36,267 bases of DNA from an uncultured Bacteroidales bacterium. Lineage in GTDB: Bacteria > Bacteroidota > Bacteroidia > Bacteroidales > FEN-979. The notes under the pieces were generated by a model. The model saw only the letters and a program-made list of their open reading frames with translations. It made no database searches and was not told where the DNA came from. The translations under genes and the position numbers were made by a program. Shown here one piece after another: positions 22,360-36,267 of this stretch (its first letter is position 1; each line of letters opens with the position of its first letter). Location: assembly GCA_903925275.1 (NCBI GenBank), contig CAIYES010000031.1, forward strand, positions 1-36,267, given 5' to 3'.

Positions 22360-22393
22360 AACCCTGACGGGGTGGTGGACCCTGACGGGGTCA
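22360..22393. repeat. Two copies of CCCTGACGGGGT element between the T9SS gene and the M2-like peptidase gene
   Basis: AACCCTGACGGGGTggtggACCCTGACGGGGTCA. Confidence 0.8.
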
Positions 22394-24070
22394 ATCGACA
22401 AACTGCTTTGCATAATACTTCGCCGTAAGTTTTTCACCGGTGGCCTTTTCGATCATTTCGTTCCAGTACCAGCGACTGCCGGGCATGAAGATTTTTTCCT
22501 TAAGCCAGGCGCCAACCTCTTTGTTGCCCACAAAACTCTGAAATTTGTAGTTGTCAGATTTAATTACCGAGCCAACGATGTAATAATACAATTGCGAAGC
22601 AAGAAGTTCGCCAAGCAGGTAATTGTGATAGTAGCAGGGATAGGTGGCAATGTGGATTTTGGTAGCCCAGTCGGGTTCGTTACGGCCTGCCGGGCGTTTT
22701 AGTAACTGATATTTTTCAACCAGGTTCCACCACAATTTGTTCAGATCCTGATCTGGATTTTCATACATACCCTTTTCGAAACGATACATTACCTGAGCCC
22801 AGCGGCTGAAAACAAGTTGTTCAAGGCGAAGTGTTTTAAAACTATTTTCGGCAATCTTCATCTTCTCCTCTTCGGTGATACCGGTCATATCTTTTATCCA
22901 CTGCGGATTTGAGGAGAAACGACCGAACATCATGGCAATGGATTCGGTGGTAAAGGTATGCGCCGGATCACGCAGGATGAAGGGCAACAGGGTGTCGATG
23001 TTTTTATCATAAGCCGCATGTCCGAACTCATGAAGCATGGTGTTCATCCATTTGGAATTTGGTTTGATGTTGCAAAGTACACGAACATCACCTGCGTTAT
23101 CAAGATCAGTGCAGAAAGCATGCTGATTCTTCCCCGACTTTTCGTACAGGTCGCTGTTTTTGAGGATATCATTGATGGGAAGCCCGATGCCGGCATAAAA
23201 ATCGGCGGTCAGTGTTTCAAGGTTTTTATCCTTGTAATACGTATCAAGGTCAACATTATAAATCTTCGGCGCCTCCTGAAAAAAGCGGTTCTGATAATTC
23301 CAGGGCATCAGTTCATCCTTGCTTTTCAGATTGTAATATTTAACGAAATAGCTGTCAATATCACCCTTCACTTTGACAAAGGCACCTTTGGTTAATTTGT
23401 CAAGCTCATCAAAGAGTTTACTCACCTCTTTCGGATCCTGGTCACTCAAGGTAAGACTCATCTCATGGTAGTTGTTAAATCCAAGCTCTTTGGCAACTTC
23501 ATTGCGCAGTTTGACTAATTTTTTGATGTCTCCTGCGACGACAGTGCCTATCTTTTTCTGGGCTTCCCAGACATCTTCCTGATATTTGACATCTTTTGAA
23601 CTGCGCAACACATCTTCTACATCATTGTCCGACAGTTTTTTACCACCTATTTCCGTACGGAAATTGCCGTATTTTTGTTCTATCACTGTACCCAGGCGCA
23701 CCATTGCATTAAGCTTAGCCGTATCGGCCTTTGCCATAAGGAAAGAGCGGTACAGCACATCCAGCTCGCGGAGGAGCAGGCTGTCGGTAATCATCCCTGA
23801 AATTTTAATCTCCTCCAGTTTTTTTAACGACTCCTTATTGGAATAGAGGGACATCATTTGCAAATTAAGATCTTCCGATTTTTTAAAATCTTCCGGATTT
23901 CCTGAAACCGCTGCATTCCACGACGCAAGCGCAGTTTGCTTGTAAAGTGGAATCAGCACCGAATCATGCTTTCTGATAAAATTGGTTAGTTCTTTCTTCA
24001 TTTTTTCCTGTTTGGAAGTACAGCCTGCCAGTAACAGCAGCGACAAGGTTAATGCGTAGATTGTTTTCAT
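22391..24070 (-). CDS. M2-family-like (angiotensin-converting-enzyme-like) zinc metallopeptidase, lipoprotein
   Basis: [11 protein letters not shown] (HEXXH) with downstream E ([13 protein letters not shown]); lipobox [11 protein letters not shown]. The ORF track extension to 24193 is a translated tandem repeat; the true start is probably 24070. Confidence 0.9.
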
Positions 24071-24082
24071 ATGGGTTGGTTT

Positions 24083-24201
24083 AGGCAGTAGGCAATAGGC
24101 AATAGGCAATAGGCAGTAGGCAATAGGCAGTAGGCAATAGGCAGTAGGCAATAGGCAATAGGCAATAGGCAGTAGGCAATAGGCAATAGGCAATAGGCAT
24201 T
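24083..24201. repeat. 7-bp tandem repeat AGGCA(A/G)T, 17 units
   Basis: Continuous units, alternating AGGCAAT and AGGCAGT. Confidence 0.97.
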
Positions 24202-28222: not shown

Positions 28223-28753
28223 TTATTTGACCGGTCTGAAAATCTTGAATTTTCCACGGGTGATGTTTTTCATGTCAATCTCGCTGATGTCTACCTTGCG
28301 ACCCCCAAAACCTGTATTCTGATGTGCCAGGAAATATTCTCCCTTGCCAGTTACCTTATAGATTATAGCCGTATGATGTCCCATTGTTTCGGTATAGTGA
28401 ATTCCGTTTTTATCGTATTTAACGGTAACCCCTTCAAACTGGATGATATCACCCGGGTAAATGCACTGCGTTTGGCAATCGACTTCCTGCCCAAACACAT
28501 AACTGTGGTCCCAGGTAGCATCCAGTAAGTTTAGCGCTTCTGCTGCCACATCCCAGCATTCTCCTCTTCCGACCTTTTTTTTCATATTGGAATTTACGAA
28601 GTGAACCACCCCGAGGTTCAATTCCGGGATGCTGTCGCAACCGATTGAATCAATGGGCACTGCAGAATTATCAGGAAGATCTTTCCCGGCAATTGGGTGG
28701 CAAAAAAACAGAAATCCGACGAAGATGAATGGGCATACAAACAGTAATTTCAT
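28223..28753 (-). CDS. Secreted protein of unknown function, possibly CHAP/NlpC-P60-like
   Basis: Signal peptide from internal Met (MKLLFVCPFIFVGFLFFCHPIAG); GECWDVAAEAL ... IYPGDIIQFEG ... MGHHTAIIYKV resembles a Cys/His papain-like fold; weak assignment. Confidence 0.6.
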   Translation of the reverse strand: MKLLFVCPFIFVGFLFFCHPIAGKDLPDNSAVPIDSIGCDSIPELNLGVVHFVNSNMKKKVGRGECWDVAAEALNLLDATWDHSYVFGQEVDCQTQCIYPGDIIQFEGVTVKYDKNGIHYTETMGHHTAIIYKVTGKGEYFLAHQNTGFGGRKVDISEIDMKNITRGKFKIFRPVK

Positions 28754-29124
28754 TGTTTCATTTTTAAATTCGACAGTACAATTTAGTTTCCTTTGACCCG
28801 CCAGAAGCTTACTTACCTGTTCAGGAAGGTAACCATCAGAATCAGTATATAGCCGCTTTTCCAACGAAAGTTGGCAAAATTTTAAAGATCAGTCCATAGA
28901 TGCCCGATCAAAACGCAAGCGGCATAAAAAGTACTTTCCGGATGGGACTCAATCTGCGATTTTTCCAGAATCAAACTTACATAATAATTGCGATTCATAA
29001 CGTACCAAATAAAAATCACTTTGGATATTTCGAAGATGGTACACCGGATTGACTTGAAAAGCCAAGCCACCGGTTTAAAGTAAAAACCACATAATACAGA
29101 TATTTAAATAGTTATGAATCGACA

Positions 29125-29141
29125 TGTTGAATAATGCAACA
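29125..29141. promoter_or_regulatory. Candidate activator-binding site A (TGTTGAATAATGCAACA)
   Basis: 17-bp element with TGTTG/CAACA inverted arms; 15/17 identical to the element at 29214. Confidence 0.55.
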
Positions 29142-29213
29142 GGTGTATATAAAATATACAATACGTGCAATATATCTGATAAACAGAACGTTGCATGAAG
29201 TTTTCCATGAAGT

Positions 29214-29230
29214 TGTTTAATAATTCAACA
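29214..29230. promoter_or_regulatory. Candidate activator-binding site B (TGTTTAATAATTCAACA)
   Basis: 15/17 identical to site A, same orientation, 89 bp downstream; ~78 bp upstream of the sigma54-like promoter. Confidence 0.55.
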
Positions 29231-29307
29231 GTTCGCCGTGTATATTTTATAAACACTCATCATGTTAAATGATTGATAAACAGCTAGATATAACCTGTTT
29301 TGTCCTT

Positions 29308-29322
29308 TGGCACTATTATTGA
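29308..29322 (+). promoter_or_regulatory. Sigma54-like -24/-12 promoter (TGGCAC-TATTA-TTGA)
   Basis: Matches TGGCAC-N5-TTGC with correct GG-N10 spacing; only the C of the -12 GC is replaced by A. ATG at 29357. Confidence 0.6.
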
Positions 29323-29356
29323 AAGACTGAATTCATTACATAAAATAAATAAGATT

Positions 29357-31051
29357 ATGAAAACCAGTATCTTTTTATTCATCGGATTGTTACTGCTGAG
29401 CTGCAGCGCCGTGAATAGCCAGGAAGTAGCTGCAAAAGCCAGCAGCCTGCCAGAGGGAACCATCAATGTTGTGAGTTCGCCGGATCTATATAGCCTGACA
29501 ATGAAATGGGCGGGAGAATACAACCGTTTAAACCCGAAAGTGAAGATTCAGGTAACACAGGGAACAGAAGCAGGGATAGCATCCATGCTGAAATCAGGCT
29601 CGGGCATCGGCTTCGTTTCAAATGAATCTGATCCTGCACTCCACAGTGAATCAGCTTTAAATATGGTGGTTGGACGGGATGTAATCGTGTCGGTGATGAA
29701 TTCAAAAAATCCTTTTCTGGATGAAATTAATCAGAAAGGTATCTCGCCGGCAGCTTTCGCAAGGATTATTGAAAGCCCTGATAAGGTGACCTGGGGAGAC
29801 ATCCTGGGAACCGGGCAGAATGTGCCTGTTCACTGCTATATTGTGAACGATGCTTCAGTAATCACGGGAGTGGAGAATTTTTTAAAAGCAAACCAGCATA
29901 TGGTCAATGCCTTGATGGTGGAAAGCGGAGCCGAGATGACGGCCGCACTGCAGAAGGATCCGAATGCAATCGGTTTTTGCAGTATGGTCAGCATACTTGA
30001 TGCAAATAATCAAAAAATGGCCGAAAACATTAAATTGTTGCCGATCGATAAAAACGGGAACGGGAATATTGATTACATGGAGAAAATATATGGTGACCTC
30101 CAGTCTTTCTCACGGGGTGTCTGGATTGGAAAATATCCAAAAACTTTATCGGGAAATATCTATGCCGTTTCTGCGATTGAACCTGCTAATGAAAATGAAA
30201 CAGCTTTTCTTACATGGGTACTCACAGATGGGCAGCAGTTTCTGAACCTGCAAGGCTTCAGCGACCTCGTAAGCAGTGAAAGACAGACACAATTGGATAA
30301 GTTGACCTATAAGCCGGATACGACTGAGGCCAGTATGTATAATTGGTACAACATTCTGAAAGTGACCCTGCTGATAATCCTCGCGTTCGCGGTAATCGGG
30401 TTCATAGTGGATATGATGGTCAGAACCAGGAGAAGGAAAACGGTTGTTCTTCCGGATTCGGCTTACACACCTTCGCCTTTGTTTGATGAGGAATCAGTGA
30501 TTGTGCCTAAAGGACTTTATTTTGACAAGACCCATACTTGGGCATTCATGGAAAAGGATGGCAAGGTAAAAATTGGCATCGATGACTTCCTTCAGCATAT
30601 CACAGGCCCCATATCCGGAATCGGAATGAAACCTGCCGGGGTGAAGTTAAAAAAAGGAGACCCATTGCTTACCATTCTCCAAAAAGGAAAGCATCTGCTT
30701 ATTTATTCTCCGGTTTCGGGAACCATATCTGACTACAACCACAACCTGTCGACACAATCATCCGCACTCAATGCTGCTCCCTATTCTGACGGATGGGTCT
30801 ATACGATAGAGCCGACAAACTGGTTGAGGGAAATACAGTTTTTAATCACGGCAGACAAATACAGAACATGGTTAAAAGATGAATTTTCGAGGCTCAAGGA
30901 TTTTTTTGCAACAGCTTTAACAATCCACACACCTGAATATGCTCAGGTTGTAATGCAGGATGGCGGTGTTCTGAGTGACAATATCCTTGCTGAACTCGGT
31001 CCCAAGGTATGGGAAGATTTTCAAACGAAATTTATTGATAATGCACGATAA
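29357..31051 (+). CDS. PstS-like solute-binding lipoprotein fused via a TM helix to a GcvH-like (lipoyl-like) domain
   Basis: Lipobox LLLLSCSAVNS; PBP-like SSPDLYSLTMKWAGEYNRLNPKVKIQVTQGTEAGIASMLKSG; TM VTLLIILAFAVIGFIVDMMVRTRRRK; GcvH-like GLYFDKTHTWAFMEKDGKVKIGIDDFLQHITGPI...LLIYSPVSGTI...DGWVYTIEPTNW. Confidence 0.85.
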   Translation: MKTSIFLFIGLLLLSCSAVNSQEVAAKASSLPEGTINVVSSPDLYSLTMKWAGEYNRLNPKVKIQVTQGTEAGIASMLKSGSGIGFVSNESDPALHSESALNMVVGRDVIVSVMNSKNPFLDEINQKGISPAAFARIIESPDKVTWGDILGTGQNVPVHCYIVNDASVITGVENFLKANQHMVNALMVESGAEMTAALQKDPNAIGFCSMVSILDANNQKMAENIKLLPIDKNGNGNIDYMEKIYGDLQSFSRGVWIGKYPKTLSGNIYAVSAIEPANENETAFLTWVLTDGQQFLNLQGFSDLVSSERQTQLDKLTYKPDTTEASMYNWYNILKVTLLIILAFAVIGFIVDMMVRTRRRKTVVLPDSAYTPSPLFDEESVIVPKGLYFDKTHTWAFMEKDGKVKIGIDDFLQHITGPISGIGMKPAGVKLKKGDPLLTILQKGKHLLIYSPVSGTISDYNHNLSTQSSALNAAPYSDGWVYTIEPTNWLREIQFLITADKYRTWLKDEFSRLKDFFATALTIHTPEYAQVVMQDGGVLSDNILAELGPKVWEDFQTKFIDNAR

Positions 31052-31098
31052 CCATTGATTTATTCAGGAAACATTCATCATACTAAAAAACTGAAGTT

Positions 31099-31965
31099 AT
31101 GGGCATTAACCGACGAGGCTTTTTTAAACTGCTGGGCGTTGCAGGGGCCACGCTTGCCATTGGAAATGAAACAAATGCTTCGCCGCAAGGTAAAAGCGAC
31201 GTAGAATTCTACGGAATTTTATATGATGCTTCACGCTGTAAGGGTTGCCGGGGGTGCGAATATGATTGTGAAGAAGCACATAATTTACCTGAACCATTGC
31301 CTTCAAACAAGATCGCAGCAATACGCAAAACGAATGAAACCTGCAATACCGTTGTCAATACGTATAATACAACGAAAGGTAAGGTGTTTGTTAAACGTCA
31401 GTGTATGCATTGCAACGAACCTGCCTGTGTTGCCGCCTGCCTGACCAAGGCCATGCATAAAACAAAAATGGGGCCGGTTACCTGGGATGGCAATAAATGC
31501 ATGGGCTGCCGGTATTGCATGGTTTCCTGTCCGTGGGATATGCCGAAATTCGAATATCACAGTGCAAACCCGAAAATTCAGAAGTGTGATATGTGTTTCA
31601 GCAGACTAAAAACCGGCGACAGTCCTGCCTGTGCATTTAATTGCCCGAATGAAGCACTGTTATACGGAAAACGCAGGGATTTGATTAAGGAAGCACACCG
31701 AAGGATATTTGAAAAACCGGATCTTTATTTCGATCACGTTTATGGCGAACATGAAGCCGGAGGAACGGGATGGCTTTATGTGTCGCCTGTACCGTTTGAG
31801 CAATTAGGCATGAACACATCCCTTCAGCAATCATCCTATCCGGCACTGACAAAAGGGTTTCTGTATAGTGTCCCATCTGTATTTGTTTTAGTTCCGGCAC
31901 TCTTATTAGGAATTCAGCAGGCAACAAAAAAGGATTCCCTTAACAACGATAAAGAAGATGAATAA
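31099..31965 (+). CDS. Tat-exported HybA-like 4Fe-4S ferredoxin-type electron-transfer subunit
   Basis: Twin-arginine start MGINRRGFFKLLGVAGATLAIG; four Cys quartets CKGCRGCEYDC, CMHCNEPACVAAC, CMGCRYCMVSC, CDMCFSRLKTGDSPACAFNC; C-terminal TM helix. Confidence 0.9.
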   Translation: MGINRRGFFKLLGVAGATLAIGNETNASPQGKSDVEFYGILYDASRCKGCRGCEYDCEEAHNLPEPLPSNKIAAIRKTNETCNTVVNTYNTTKGKVFVKRQCMHCNEPACVAACLTKAMHKTKMGPVTWDGNKCMGCRYCMVSCPWDMPKFEYHSANPKIQKCDMCFSRLKTGDSPACAFNCPNEALLYGKRRDLIKEAHRRIFEKPDLYFDHVYGEHEAGGTGWLYVSPVPFEQLGMNTSLQQSSYPALTKGFLYSVPSVFVLVPALLLGIQQATKKDSLNNDKEDE

Positions 31966-33184
31966 CAACAATCCGGTTCCGGCAGATTATGATGGTAAAT
32001 CCATCTGGAAGTTCCTGGTAAGTGAATTTAAGCCCAAAGGGAAATTCCTGACTCCTTTTAATGTTATCTCGATCCCAATTATGATTCTGGGTGTGGTACT
32101 GATCATCTTTCGTTTCTGGAAGGGAATAGGTTCCATTACAAATCTGACCCAGGAAATCCCATGGGGCTTATGGATAGGGTTTGATGTGGTTACCGGGGTT
32201 GCTTTTGCAGGTGGCGCCTATGTGATAACGTTTATGGTGTATATCCTGAACATGCATAAGTACCATTCTATTGTCAGAATCACGGTGTTGAACGGCTTCC
32301 TTGCCTATGTGTTTTACGCCGGTGCCCTGCTCCTCGACCTGGGGCGCCCCTGGCATGTGATAAATCCTGTTATCGGAAACAGTTTCGGAACCAGTTCGGT
32401 ATTGTTCCTGGTCGCATGGCACTTTCTGCTTTATATGATCGCCCAACTGATCGAATTTTCACCGGTTATTGCAGAATGGCTTGGCGCCAGGCGTGCACGA
32501 AAGATACTTTCGGGAATGACCGTTGCAGCCGTTATCTTCGGGATTACTTTGTCTACACTGCATCAGTCGGGACTGGGCGCTCTTTACCTCATGGCAAAAG
32601 ATAAGATACATCCGCTCTGGTATTCCGAATTTATCCCGATCATGTTTTTTGTATCCAGTATTTTTGCCGGGCTTTCGATGGTAATTTTCGAAGGAAGCAT
32701 CAGCCACAAAGTTTTTTTCAGCCAGATCAGTGAAAAAAACCACAAGGCACAGCGCGGGATAATCCATGGACTGGCAAAAATCTGTGCCGGTGCCATGTTT
32801 GCCTACTTTTTCCTGCAGATGCTCGTCTTTATTCACGGGCAGCGCTGGGAACTTTTAAATACAGGGATGGGCTATTGGTTTCTCCTCGAAATGCTGGGGT
32901 TTGTCATGTTGCCCATGATGCTCTTTGTTTACAGTTACCGCCGAAACAACCTCCTGCTGATACGTGTTGCTGCCATCCTGACCATGCTCGGAGTCATCCT
33001 GAACAGGCTGAATGTAACGGTAATTGGATTCAGATGGGATATGGCCATACGGTATGTGCCGTCATGGATGGAAGTTGTGGTTACCCTGACAGTAATTTTT
33101 ACAGAAATTTGGATATTCAGGTGGGTTATTAACCGCATGCCGGTTTTACGGGATGCCCCATCCTGGACAAATGATCAACAATAA
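31958..33184 (+). CDS. HybB/NrfD/PsrC-like quinone-interacting integral membrane subunit
   Basis: About 10 hydrophobic helices; GLWIGFDVVTGVAFAGGAYVITFMVYIL, LDLGRPWH, STLHQSGLGALYLMAKDKIHPLWYSEFIPIMFFVSSIFAG typical of HybB; overlaps the end of the HybA-like gene. Confidence 0.92.
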   Translation: MNNNNPVPADYDGKSIWKFLVSEFKPKGKFLTPFNVISIPIMILGVVLIIFRFWKGIGSITNLTQEIPWGLWIGFDVVTGVAFAGGAYVITFMVYILNMHKYHSIVRITVLNGFLAYVFYAGALLLDLGRPWHVINPVIGNSFGTSSVLFLVAWHFLLYMIAQLIEFSPVIAEWLGARRARKILSGMTVAAVIFGITLSTLHQSGLGALYLMAKDKIHPLWYSEFIPIMFFVSSIFAGLSMVIFEGSISHKVFFSQISEKNHKAQRGIIHGLAKICAGAMFAYFFLQMLVFIHGQRWELLNTGMGYWFLLEMLGFVMLPMMLFVYSYRRNNLLLIRVAAILTMLGVILNRLNVTVIGFRWDMAIRYVPSWMEVVVTLTVIFTEIWIFRWVINRMPVLRDAPSWTNDQQ

Positions 33185-33231
33185 ATTAACCAGGAGTCAC
33201 CGATTACGGTGATTACATAAAAATTAGACAT

Positions 33232-33954
33232 ATGGACGGATTTAGTTATTCTGATATTTTTGCTACTAAAGGCGTAGAATATCTGATCATCATCGCTTTC
33301 CTGGCAATGCTGATCCCTTTTTCGGTTATTTTGAACAAACAGATGAAAATAACAACGCAGATCAAACAGGTACTGGGAAATCTTTCAGCCGGTATTTTAA
33401 GAATTCCCCAGGGATTGTTTTACTCCAAAAATCACACCTGGATGTTTATGGAAAAATCAGGTGCTGCAAAAGTGGGGCTGGATGATCTATTGCTACATGT
33501 TACCGGCGAGGTGAAAATAAGCAAACTTAAAAATCCCGGAGAAATGATCAATAAAGGAGAGTTATTGACCGAGATTGATCAGAATGGCAAACAACTCAGG
33601 ATATTTTCACCTGTTTCCGGAAAAATCATAGAGACAAACGAACGGCTGAGTGAGAACCCCGGCACGATGAATGAGGATCCTTATGGCAAAGGGTGGATTT
33701 ACAAAATTAAACCCTCTGATTGGATTTCAGAAGCAAAGTCCTGTTATTTTGCCGAAGAGGCAACAATCTGGTCAGCAAAAGAACTTGAAAGGTTCAGGGA
33801 TTTCCTGGCAGTGACCATGAAAAACCACTCACCCGAAACCGCCATGGTTATTTTGCAGGATGGTGGTGAATTATGCGATCATACACTTGCAGCATTACCC
33901 GATGAAATATGGAAGGATTTCCAGAAAGAATTTCTAAATCTCTACCGGATATAG
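33232..33954 (+). CDS. Membrane-anchored GcvH-like domain protein, paralogous to the C-terminal half of the 29357 gene
   Basis: N-terminal TM YLIIIAFLAMLIPFSVIL; GLFYSKNHTWMFMEKSGAAKVGLDDLLLHVTGEV...LRIFSPVSGKI...GKGWIYKIKPSDW; shared tail VILQDGGELCDHTLAALPDEIWKDFQKEF vs VVMQDGGVLSDNILAELGPKVWEDFQTKF. Confidence 0.87.
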   Translation: MDGFSYSDIFATKGVEYLIIIAFLAMLIPFSVILNKQMKITTQIKQVLGNLSAGILRIPQGLFYSKNHTWMFMEKSGAAKVGLDDLLLHVTGEVKISKLKNPGEMINKGELLTEIDQNGKQLRIFSPVSGKIIETNERLSENPGTMNEDPYGKGWIYKIKPSDWISEAKSCYFAEEATIWSAKELERFRDFLAVTMKNHSPETAMVILQDGGELCDHTLAALPDEIWKDFQKEFLNLYRI

Positions 33955-34027
33955 AAGCCCGGCAAATGATTGCGAATATCCTTCTTACAATTGCTATCCC
34001 TGATTCGGGGAAAATATAAGATTTTAA

Positions 34028-34055
34028 AAACTGGTGTCAGATCACCAGTTTTTTT
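34028..34055 (+). terminator. Rho-independent-type terminator
   Basis: AAACTGGTG-tcagat-CACCAGTTT followed by a run of T's (34049-34055). Confidence 0.85.
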
Positions 34056-34114
34056 GTATTTTGCAATGAAATATAACATGGTAATTATTAGCGGTTAATC
34101 GACACTCAATAAAA

Positions 34115-35797
34115 GTGGTTCCTATGATTTTCTTTAATAAACCGGCAAATAAAAATGGCACAGGGAATGTGATTTTTAAGAAATATGTCAAATTCCGCTC
34201 TTCAATTTATGGGAGGGTGGTTTTTATCATAACCATGCTGTCTGTGTTTTTATTTGTATCATTCAGCCTTATTTTCAGATCGGTCAATGAAGAATACCTG
34301 AATACGGTCATTCGTCAGAGCGGAAACAATATCGGGTCAATCGTAGAAGGTTCTCTGTATCGTTCAATGCTCGAAAACGACAAGAGTACCCTCCAGTATA
34401 CACTTGATATTATCAATACCATGAAGGGTATCGATGAGGTGAACATGTATGATGACGAGGACTACCTCGTTTATACCTCCATTCCTTCCGACACAAACAA
34501 TAACCACAGCAACCCGAATTGTATCAGTTGCCATACCAATATGAAAACAATGTTTGCCAAAAAGGCAAAGTCATATAAGATCATCAACATCGACAGTGAT
34601 TGCGATATGAATCAGAATGACAACAGCAGCAGGCATTTGCTGATTAAAATTCCCATCCTGAATGAATCGTCGTGTTATCTGAGCTCCTGTCATGCACACA
34701 AGGCAACTGATGAAGTGCTTGGATCCCTTATCATCAAAATTCCCCTAGAAGATCTTGATGCGGCTGTACAAAAGTCTTCAGTGGAGTTTTTCCTGCTGGC
34801 AATATTTGCGACCCTGTTGCTTGTTTCATTTTTAATAATATTCACAAGTAAAAAGATTAAAAATCCTCTGAATGCCCTAATCAAGGCAAGCATAGCAGTT
34901 GCCAACGGTGATAAAAACACGAGGCTGGAAATAAAACCCGATCAGTTAGACGATATGAAGATGGTTTCCCGCGCCTTCAACGACATGCTTGACAATCTTC
35001 AATCTGCAAACAATGAGCTGGAAAACTGGTCGCAACAGCTTGAATATAAAGTTCAGAAAAAATCGGAAGAATTAGGAGCTGCACAGAATGAATTGATGCA
35101 CGTGGAACGGCTGGCTTCGCTTGGAAAATTATCCTCATCGGTTGCGCATGAAATTAACAATCCATTATCGGGAATTCTGATCTATACGAAACTGTTATAT
35201 AAACAGTTAAGCAATCCGGAATTGGATGACTCCAAAAGAAACTCCATGCTCAAGCATCTGAAACTCATTGAAAATGAAACAAAACGTTGCGGAGATATCG
35301 TGAAGGGCTTGCTGGATTTTTCAAGAAAAGACCAGGATAATTTTGAGCCCAAGCATCTTCATGATATTTTACATGAAACATGCGAGATAATGATGCACCC
35401 TATTAAAATCGCAAATATCATCTTTGCCACAGAATTTTCAGCCGGATCAGATTTAATTTATTGCAGTCCTAATCAGATCAAACAGGCCTGCATTGCGATA
35501 CTCGTAAATGCTTCCGAAGCAGTACTTGACAACGGAGAAATCGTGATAAGAACCAAAAACCCTGATGCGGACACCATAAAAATTGAAATAACGGATAATG
35601 GTTTAGGAATATCGGCTGAGGATCTCCCGCATATTTTCGAACCTTTCTTTTCAACAAAACAGGACGCGAGCGGGATTGGTTTGGGATTGGCTATTGTTCA
35701 CGGGATTGTGCAAAGCCATAATGGCAAAATACAAGTGAAATCAGAACTGGGAAACGGAACAACCATAACGGTGACTTTCCCGCTGATAAGAAATTAA
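34115..35797 (+). CDS. HAMP sensor histidine kinase with extracytoplasmic c-type heme-like motifs
   Basis: Two TM helices flank a sensor region containing CISCH (CxxCH) and CYLSSCHAH (CX4CH); HAMP; SLGKLSSSVAHEINNPLSGIL H-box; EITDNGLGISAEDLPHIFEPFFSTK...GIGLGLAIVHGIV. Confidence 0.92.
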   Translation: MVPMIFFNKPANKNGTGNVIFKKYVKFRSSIYGRVVFIITMLSVFLFVSFSLIFRSVNEEYLNTVIRQSGNNIGSIVEGSLYRSMLENDKSTLQYTLDIINTMKGIDEVNMYDDEDYLVYTSIPSDTNNNHSNPNCISCHTNMKTMFAKKAKSYKIINIDSDCDMNQNDNSSRHLLIKIPILNESSCYLSSCHAHKATDEVLGSLIIKIPLEDLDAAVQKSSVEFFLLAIFATLLLVSFLIIFTSKKIKNPLNALIKASIAVANGDKNTRLEIKPDQLDDMKMVSRAFNDMLDNLQSANNELENWSQQLEYKVQKKSEELGAAQNELMHVERLASLGKLSSSVAHEINNPLSGILIYTKLLYKQLSNPELDDSKRNSMLKHLKLIENETKRCGDIVKGLLDFSRKDQDNFEPKHLHDILHETCEIMMHPIKIANIIFATEFSAGSDLIYCSPNQIKQACIAILVNASEAVLDNGEIVIRTKNPDADTIKIEITDNGLGISAEDLPHIFEPFFSTKQDASGIGLGLAIVHGIVQSHNGKIQVKSELGNGTTITVTFPLIRN

Positions 35798-35808
35798 AGC
35801 TATCAACT

Positions 35809-36267
35809 ATGGCAAAAAAGATTTCCATTTTAATCGTTGACGATGAAGAATCGGTAAGAGATTCATTGTTCAGTTGGTTCACCGAAGACGGGTTCCGTGT
35901 AGAATGTGCAGAAAACGCCAGGAAAGCATTGTCAATGCTTGAATCTGATTATTTTGATATTATCCTGGCGGATATAAAAATGCCCGGGATGGACGGGCTG
36001 GAAATGCTCAGAAGAATAAAATCCCTGAAATCGGATTCTATTGTAATTGTCATGACTGCCTTTGCCACCGTAGATACTGCTGTTAAGGCATTGAAAGACG
36101 GCGCGTTTGATTATGTCACCAAACCCTTTGACCCCGACGACCTTACCCATTTGATCCGGAATGCCACTAAACAGATATCGCTGACTGAAGAAAATGAAAC
36201 ACTGAAGAAAAAAATCATTTCACTGGAAAACATCGAGGATCTGATCGGGAACAGCGAACCCATGAAA
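35809..36267 (+). CDS. NtrC-family sigma54-dependent response regulator (N-terminal part; truncated by window end)
   Basis: Open frame from ATG 35809: MAKKISILIVDDEESVRDSLFSWF...DIILADIKMPGMDGLEML...VMTAFATVDTAVKALKDGAFDYVTKPFDPDDL...IEDLIGNSEPMK, the last motif being the start of a sigma54-interaction AAA+ domain. No stop before the end, so absent from the ORF track. Confidence 0.9.
   Translation, partial: MAKKISILIVDDEESVRDSLFSWFTEDGFRVECAENARKALSMLESDYFDIILADIKMPGMDGLEMLRRIKSLKSDSIVIVMTAFATVDTAVKALKDGAFDYVTKPFDPDDLTHLIRNATKQISLTEENETLKKKIISLENIEDLIGNSEPMK

Follow-up and report, generated by a model that had tools for sequence, protein, structure and literature searches.

The nearest described counterparts of the system examined here are the Hmc complex of sulfate reducers (HmcABCDEF) and hydrogenase-2 of Escherichia coli (HybOABC), the latter pairing HybA, an iron-sulfur protein exported by twin-arginine translocation (Tat) and held by a C-terminal anchor, with HybB, a membrane protein of the NrfD type. 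We describe a plus-strand gene cluster in an uncultured Bacteroidales bacterium (contig CAIYES010000031.1 of assembly GCA_903925275.1; the whole 36,267-nucleotide contig is our window) in which an HmcB-/HmcC-like pair is joined to its own haem-motif histidine kinase, NtrC-type response regulator, GcvH-like proteins and an archaemetzincin. Unlike the Hmc complex, the window type has no HmcA cytochrome, which is absent from the window and its close relatives, and no HmcD, HmcE or HmcF, and unlike the hydrogenase-2 operon it includes no hydrogenase subunits (HybO, HybC). A multihaem cytochrome c, a further feature shared with the Hmc complex, does occur in a sister arrangement that we call variant 2.

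The other components likewise have described counterparts. The GcvH domains share the fold of the glycine cleavage H-protein and GcvH-like proteins (TIGR03077, NF045810), but they have no lipoyl lysine and bring a membrane anchor and an extra C-terminal Asp-Gly-Gly (DGG) region. The kinase shares a periplasmic CxxCH domain with the haem-c sensors of Geobacter (GSU0582, GSU0935) and with sCache_heme, but has a second motif, CX4CH. The response regulator, like those of known NtrC-type two-component systems, is a sigma54 activator with GAFTGA, although its predicted target is the GcvH/HmcBC operon itself. The archaemetzincin (peptidase M54) has the full zinc and cysteine motif and, unlike those known, repeatedly closes a redox two-component cluster. 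The module is made of known families, in a combination that is apparently undescribed; we found no description of it in the open-access literature searched.

We consider it about evenly poised whether this cluster is a two-component module that responds to redox state and controls an electron pair linked to quinone, its non-lipoylated GcvH domains serving as structural or regulatory elements. A membrane electron pair found together with a haem-motif kinase, a regulator, a protease and GcvH domains without a lipoyl site points to sensing and tuning rather than catalysis, and the module probably senses and tunes respiratory electron flow with no catalysis of its own. This reading is based on what the sequence shows: the composition of the cluster and its conservation, the missing lipoyl lysine, quinone and proton residues, promoter and dyads, cassette exchange and loss, and receiver-GcvH fusions.

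A conserved cluster without a catalytic subunit

The gene cluster is widely conserved and is met repeatedly in the Bacteroidota, uncultured Bacteroidales of lakes among them. With the fourth gene (GcvH-B) as query, 17 loci emerged in Bacteroidales metagenome-assembled genomes (MAGs), and the block encoding the binding-protein/GcvH fusion, HmcB, HmcC and GcvH is kept in all 17, as far as each contig extends. The histidine kinase and NtrC-type response regulator follow downstream in 14 of the 15 loci whose contigs are long enough, L005 being the exception, and 13 of those 14 also have an archaemetzincin downstream. A second survey, in which 398 genomes of the phylum were searched by profile with the GcvH-like protein as sole criterion, added 20 further regions, and the full ordered series GcvH-A, HmcB, HmcC, GcvH-B, kinase, regulator and archaemetzincin is present in 14 of these diverse regions. 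At the level of the order, there is a strong full-length match in 12 of 118 genomes sampled.

The conserved set contains no gene for a catalytic oxidoreductase, and hydrogenase or molybdoenzyme subunits form no part of the cluster. The sequence past position 36,267 could be followed on contig C349 of the same genome, where the cluster resumes with the rest of the response regulator and then the archaemetzincin gene. The end of C349 encodes the regulator from residue 158 or so onward, at 87% identity to a relative, and the gap between the two contig ends amounts to only a few residues. The initial annotation had proposed an uncharacterised membrane redox or sensor module, to be abandoned if the neighbourhood proved peculiar to this contig, already described or completed by a downstream catalyst. 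The neighbourhood is conserved well beyond this contig, no description came to light and the conserved set has no catalytic oxidoreductase, and in these respects the proposal is supported. What the sequences appear to add to it are the archaemetzincin, a predicted sigma54/response-regulator-type promoter, an HmcB-HmcC-GcvH-B cassette and the receiver-GcvH fusions of the sister variant.

GcvH domains without the lipoyl lysine

The first protein combines PF12849 PBP_like_2 (1.6e-10) with PF01597 GCV_H (2e-21), and the fourth carries GCV_H (9.8e-25). In both GcvH domains of the window the lipoyl lysine is replaced by Gly. The matching position in GcvH-B, in a gap-free alignment to H-proteins of known structure, is Gly119, with a lysine one place later, and the fused GcvH-A domain has the same Gly at this column. 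A residue other than lysine occupies the column in 57 of the 58 domains compared, while the genome's separate canonical GcvH retains the lipoyl lysine. On this alignment it is very unlikely that the domains are lipoylated, and with the lysine absent the lipoyl-type redox chemistry that the initial annotation had entertained for them fails. Lipoylation could instead fall on the neighbouring lysine, with the domains shuttling electrons as dithiols, and an invariant Gly-Lys one place past the canonical position in window-type GcvH-A and most GcvH-B would suit this. This Lys gives way to Arg in L017 and in many distant members, however, and work by Perham and co-workers reportedly found that a one-residue shift of the lipoyl lysine stops modification. 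A literature search on displaced lipoyl lysines gave nothing usable, and we regard this alternative as very improbable.

The GcvH fold itself is retained. The structure model of GcvH-B (pLDDT 86.9) comprises an N-terminal helix and a GcvH fold that matches the H-proteins 1onl, 3ab9 and 1htp at TM 0.88 (by target length). A model of the full fusion protein had a mean pLDDT of 57 and was set aside. The extra C-terminal region common to the GcvH domains contains an invariant Asp-Gly-Gly, and the GcvH-like proteins score below every GcvH equivalog cut-off. Distant GcvH-B proteins (L070:12299, L071:6750, L081:12084, L086:6205, L068:6073) carry an N-terminal four-cysteine motif, CIWMxxGVVxYKLCDRxFxCxxCPFD, which is not recognised by Pfam in the two examples scanned and may be a site for an iron-sulfur cluster or a metal.

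The periplasmic binding domain fused to GcvH-A invites another explanation, namely that it binds phosphate or another solute and signals through the transmembrane helix to the GcvH domain and then to the kinase. The union of a periplasmic PBP_like_2 domain, a transmembrane helix and a cytoplasmic GcvH domain in one protein favours such ligand sensing, as does retention of the binding domain in two of the three reduced clusters discussed below. We nevertheless judge it improbable. The domain is the least conserved part of the fusion protein, and it scores 46.7 bits against TIGR02136, far under the cut-off of 206.6 for membership in PstS. It is also missing in distant clusters, among them the 14 complete seven-gene clusters of the phylum, and in two genomes of the order (L104, L110). 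Since most relatives outside the order and these two genomes lack it, the binding domain is not a core part, as it had first been taken to be. No transporter genes occur in the conserved gene set. Within this PstS-like domain, residues 231-242 of the 29357-31051 product form an EF-hand-like loop, DKNGNGKIDYME, and the invariance of D231, N233, N235, D239 and E242 in 14 relatives suggests calcium binding.

The predicted HmcB-HmcC electron-transfer pair

The second and third proteins match Fer4_11 (4.2e-18) and NrfD (6.5e-15; PF03916 at 56 bits, cut-off 25.8), in agreement with the families implied by an earlier assignment as a HybA-/HybB-like pair. The nearest NCBIfam models are HmcB, at 319 bits where the cut-off is 420, and HmcC, at 407 bits where it is 550, neither equivalog cut-off being reached, and HybA and HybB rank behind. 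HmcB carries a Tat motif and is anchored in the membrane through its C-terminal end. HmcC is 27% identical to E. coli HybB and keeps most of its proton-path residues: equivalents of HybB D58, D109, S129, Y99, Y141, E148, E155, H184 and R329 are present in 39 of 39 HmcC sequences and R89 in 38 of 39 (roles in the quinone site and proton path: PMC8076601, PMC13059093). Its family score and its retention of most quinone-site and N-side channel residues, E133 and S190 not among them, identify it as an NrfD-type quinone-interacting subunit. Judging from its family, the pair should exchange electrons with menaquinone and take up protons from the cytoplasm. No relatives of HmcC were found by sequence in the PDB at E 0.001.

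A remnant hydrogenase-2 operon whose catalytic subunits were lost in this lineage would account for the similarity to HybA and HybB, but this is scarcely credible. It is already contradicted by the same catalyst-free composition across the phylum, and it sits poorly with nearest models that are HmcB and HmcC. The only PF00374 match in the genome, on contig C17, lies beside its own cytochrome b. A [NiFe] hydrogenase so equipped is no obvious partner for the pair, and it was set aside as the electron partner.

Kinase, regulator, archaemetzincin and promoter

The fifth protein has HAMP, HisKA and HATPase domains in Pfam, and the c-haem motifs noticed earlier in the two-component system are general: CxxCH and CX4CH are found in 15 of 15 aligned kinases (the window and close relatives), and haem motifs are present in the kinase of every examined cluster having one. 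None of the sensor families in Pfam is matched by the sensor domain above its cut-off. Membership in the nitric oxide-binding sCache_heme family (PMC12889525) was considered and is unsupported by any such match. The sixth protein, cut by the contig end, has a Pfam receiver domain, and the AAA and helix-turn-helix parts of the same regulator lie on C349. The full-length relative in L006 shows the receiver, the AAA domain with GAFTGA and the Fis-type helix-turn-helix of an NtrC-type sigma54 activator. The archaemetzincin motif HExxHxxGxxHCx4CxM...CxxC, a zinc/cysteine motif as in PMC3427221, is present in the C349 copy and in 18 of 19 relatives (the exception is cut by a contig end), and the C349 copy scores 163.7 bits against NF033823 (cut-off 145).

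Upstream of the operon, TGGCAY-N5-TTG occurs some 50 to 80 bases ahead of the start codon in 16 of 16 aligned regions, against 0.035 expected in all together, the window's form of this sigma54-like element being TTTGGCAC-N5-TTGAA. The same 16 regions hold 44 dyads of the form TGT-N2-A-N5-T-N2-ACA (TGT-N11-ACA), where 0.45 would be expected. Dyads and sigma54-like site together form the layout expected if the NtrC-type regulator activates its own operon with sigma54. Searches of the genome with paired-dyad, sigma54 and strict-dyad patterns found in effect this operon alone, and in one of these searches a reversed control pattern gave a similar number of stray matches. The sole other paired-dyad match in the genome, L093 (G000:C201:4247-4286), precedes a different pair of kinase and NtrC-type regulator by about 100 bases and reflects either chance or cross-regulation.

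An apparently exchangeable cassette in a predicted signalling frame

Three genomes of the order, from three families and 95-97% complete, keep GcvH-A, kinase, regulator and archaemetzincin in a cluster without HmcB, HmcC and GcvH-B, and there is no HmcC match anywhere in these genomes; the sigma54-like site is kept in two of the three. In the HmcC tree L080 and L082 join the window type (100/100), whereas in the kinase tree they group with other clusters (100/100). From the loss of HmcBC in three genomes and these discordant trees, HmcB-HmcC-GcvH-B behaves as an exchangeable, dispensable cassette within a more constant signalling frame. Variant 2 (L083:6797-14045, L086:10436-17653, L085, L094), which stands beside variant 1 in two genomes, has the order HmcB, HmcC, multihaem cytochrome c, histidine kinase, receiver-GcvH and transmembrane-receiver-GcvH. 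Its cytochrome is of class III, and the one kinase scanned has a zinc-ribbon match. That receivers are joined here to GcvH domains without the lysine is the strongest hint of a regulatory role for the domains.

The cassette also bears on whether the cluster is an ordinary respiratory conduit, in which HmcBC would link an unlinked periplasmic enzyme or cytochrome to menaquinone, the two-component system would set expression only, and the GcvH-like proteins would be structural or assembly subunits replacing HmcD/E. The quinone- and proton-handling residues retained in HmcC and the Hmc-like multihaem cytochrome of variant 2 are what such a conduit would have, yet it would not account for GcvH-A, kinase, regulator and archaemetzincin persisting without HmcBC, nor for receivers fused to GcvH domains. 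Archaemetzincins are not a known part of respiratory complexes. We think the conduit rather unlikely.

Gene layout and neighbouring genes

Contig C31, which the window spans in full, belongs to a 5.65 Mb draft genome whose closest named relatives are Bacteroidales MAGs. All six plus-strand open reading frames of the initial annotation were recovered at the same coordinates (Table 1), and Pfam agrees with its PstS-like/GcvH fusion, iron-sulfur protein, NrfD-type protein and second GcvH-like protein. Elsewhere in the window, a small minus-strand protein (28223-28864) matches PF25459, the AIM3/BBC1 C-terminal cysteine-proteinase-fold domain (1.4e-19), a family named after eukaryotic proteins and here in a bacterial host, and a minus-strand peptidase (22391-24193) matches M2, the angiotensin-converting-enzyme type (4.7e-27).

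Table 1. Features of the cluster and its upstream region in the window.
Feature	Coordinates	Strand	Details
First pair of 17-bp dyads	29125..29160	+	TGTTGAATAATGCAACA (one mismatch), TGTATATAAAATATACA; candidate operators of NtrC-type response regulator
Second pair of 17-bp dyads	29214..29255	+	TGTTTAATAATTCAACA, TGTATATTTTATAAACA; candidate operators
Sigma54-like promoter element	29306..29323	+	TTTGGCACTATTATTGAA (GG-N10-GA)
GcvH-A fused to periplasmic PstS-like domain	29357..31051	+	Signal peptide, PBP_like_2, transmembrane helix (about 333-351), lysine-less GcvH domain, C-terminal DGG region
HmcB/HybA-type Tat-exported iron-sulfur protein	31099..31965	+	C-terminal membrane anchor
HmcC/HybB-type NrfD-family quinone-interacting membrane protein (predicted role)	31958..33184	+	
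GcvH-B	33232..33954	+	N-terminal transmembrane helix, lysine-less GcvH domain, C-terminal DGG region
Sensor histidine kinase	34115..35797	+	Periplasmic domain with CxxCH and CX4CH
NtrC-type response regulator	35809..36267	+	Receiver part, cut by contig end

A model for the module and its implications

If the cluster is a redox-responsive two-component module, the putative periplasmic haem-c domain of the kinase would read a redox or a gas/ligand signal, and the kinase would phosphorylate the NtrC-type regulator, which would bind the TGT-N11-ACA dyads and activate its own operon from the sigma54-type promoter. HmcB and HmcC would mediate electron exchange between menaquinone and a diffusible carrier in the periplasm, with protons drawn from the cytoplasm, as proposed for HybB/QrcD. 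At the cytoplasmic side of the membrane, the GcvH-fold proteins would connect the electron pair to the two-component system in a structural or regulatory capacity, and the archaemetzincin would trim or remove a component of the module.

Several observations weigh against this model. Window-type HmcC has lost HybB E133, S190, S187, R265 and E268. HmcB of the distant subtype (L071, L073, L075, L077, L078 and others) keeps the C-terminal transmembrane helix and has no Tat motif, so that subtypes may differ in the side of the membrane on which the protein lies. In L005 no kinase and regulator adjoin the first four genes, and L087 and L095 have GcvH-HmcB-HmcC without a two-component system, absences that also favour the respiratory conduit. 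The signalling frame without HmcBC could be a case of ongoing decay. The -12 element of the sigma54-like site is GA rather than GC, and with paired dyads essentially only before this operon the regulator may have no wider regulon. Every comparison, moreover, was drawn from one phylum.

There is a fair chance that the module represents a new class of redox signalling. Its fullest form, a class of transmembrane redox signalling in which a catalyst-free NrfD-type quinone module is read out or controlled by way of non-lipoylated GcvH domains as phospho-regulated adaptors for a haem-c/NtrC-type system, with archaemetzincin as dedicated protease, we put forward more tentatively. If true, the module would give a fixed genomic context to archaemetzincins, it would be a case of the GcvH fold put to new use, without lipoate, as a partner of phospho-receivers, and it would constitute a redox-sensing system recurrent across the Bacteroidota, whose predicted regulation is open to direct testing through the conserved promoter and operators.
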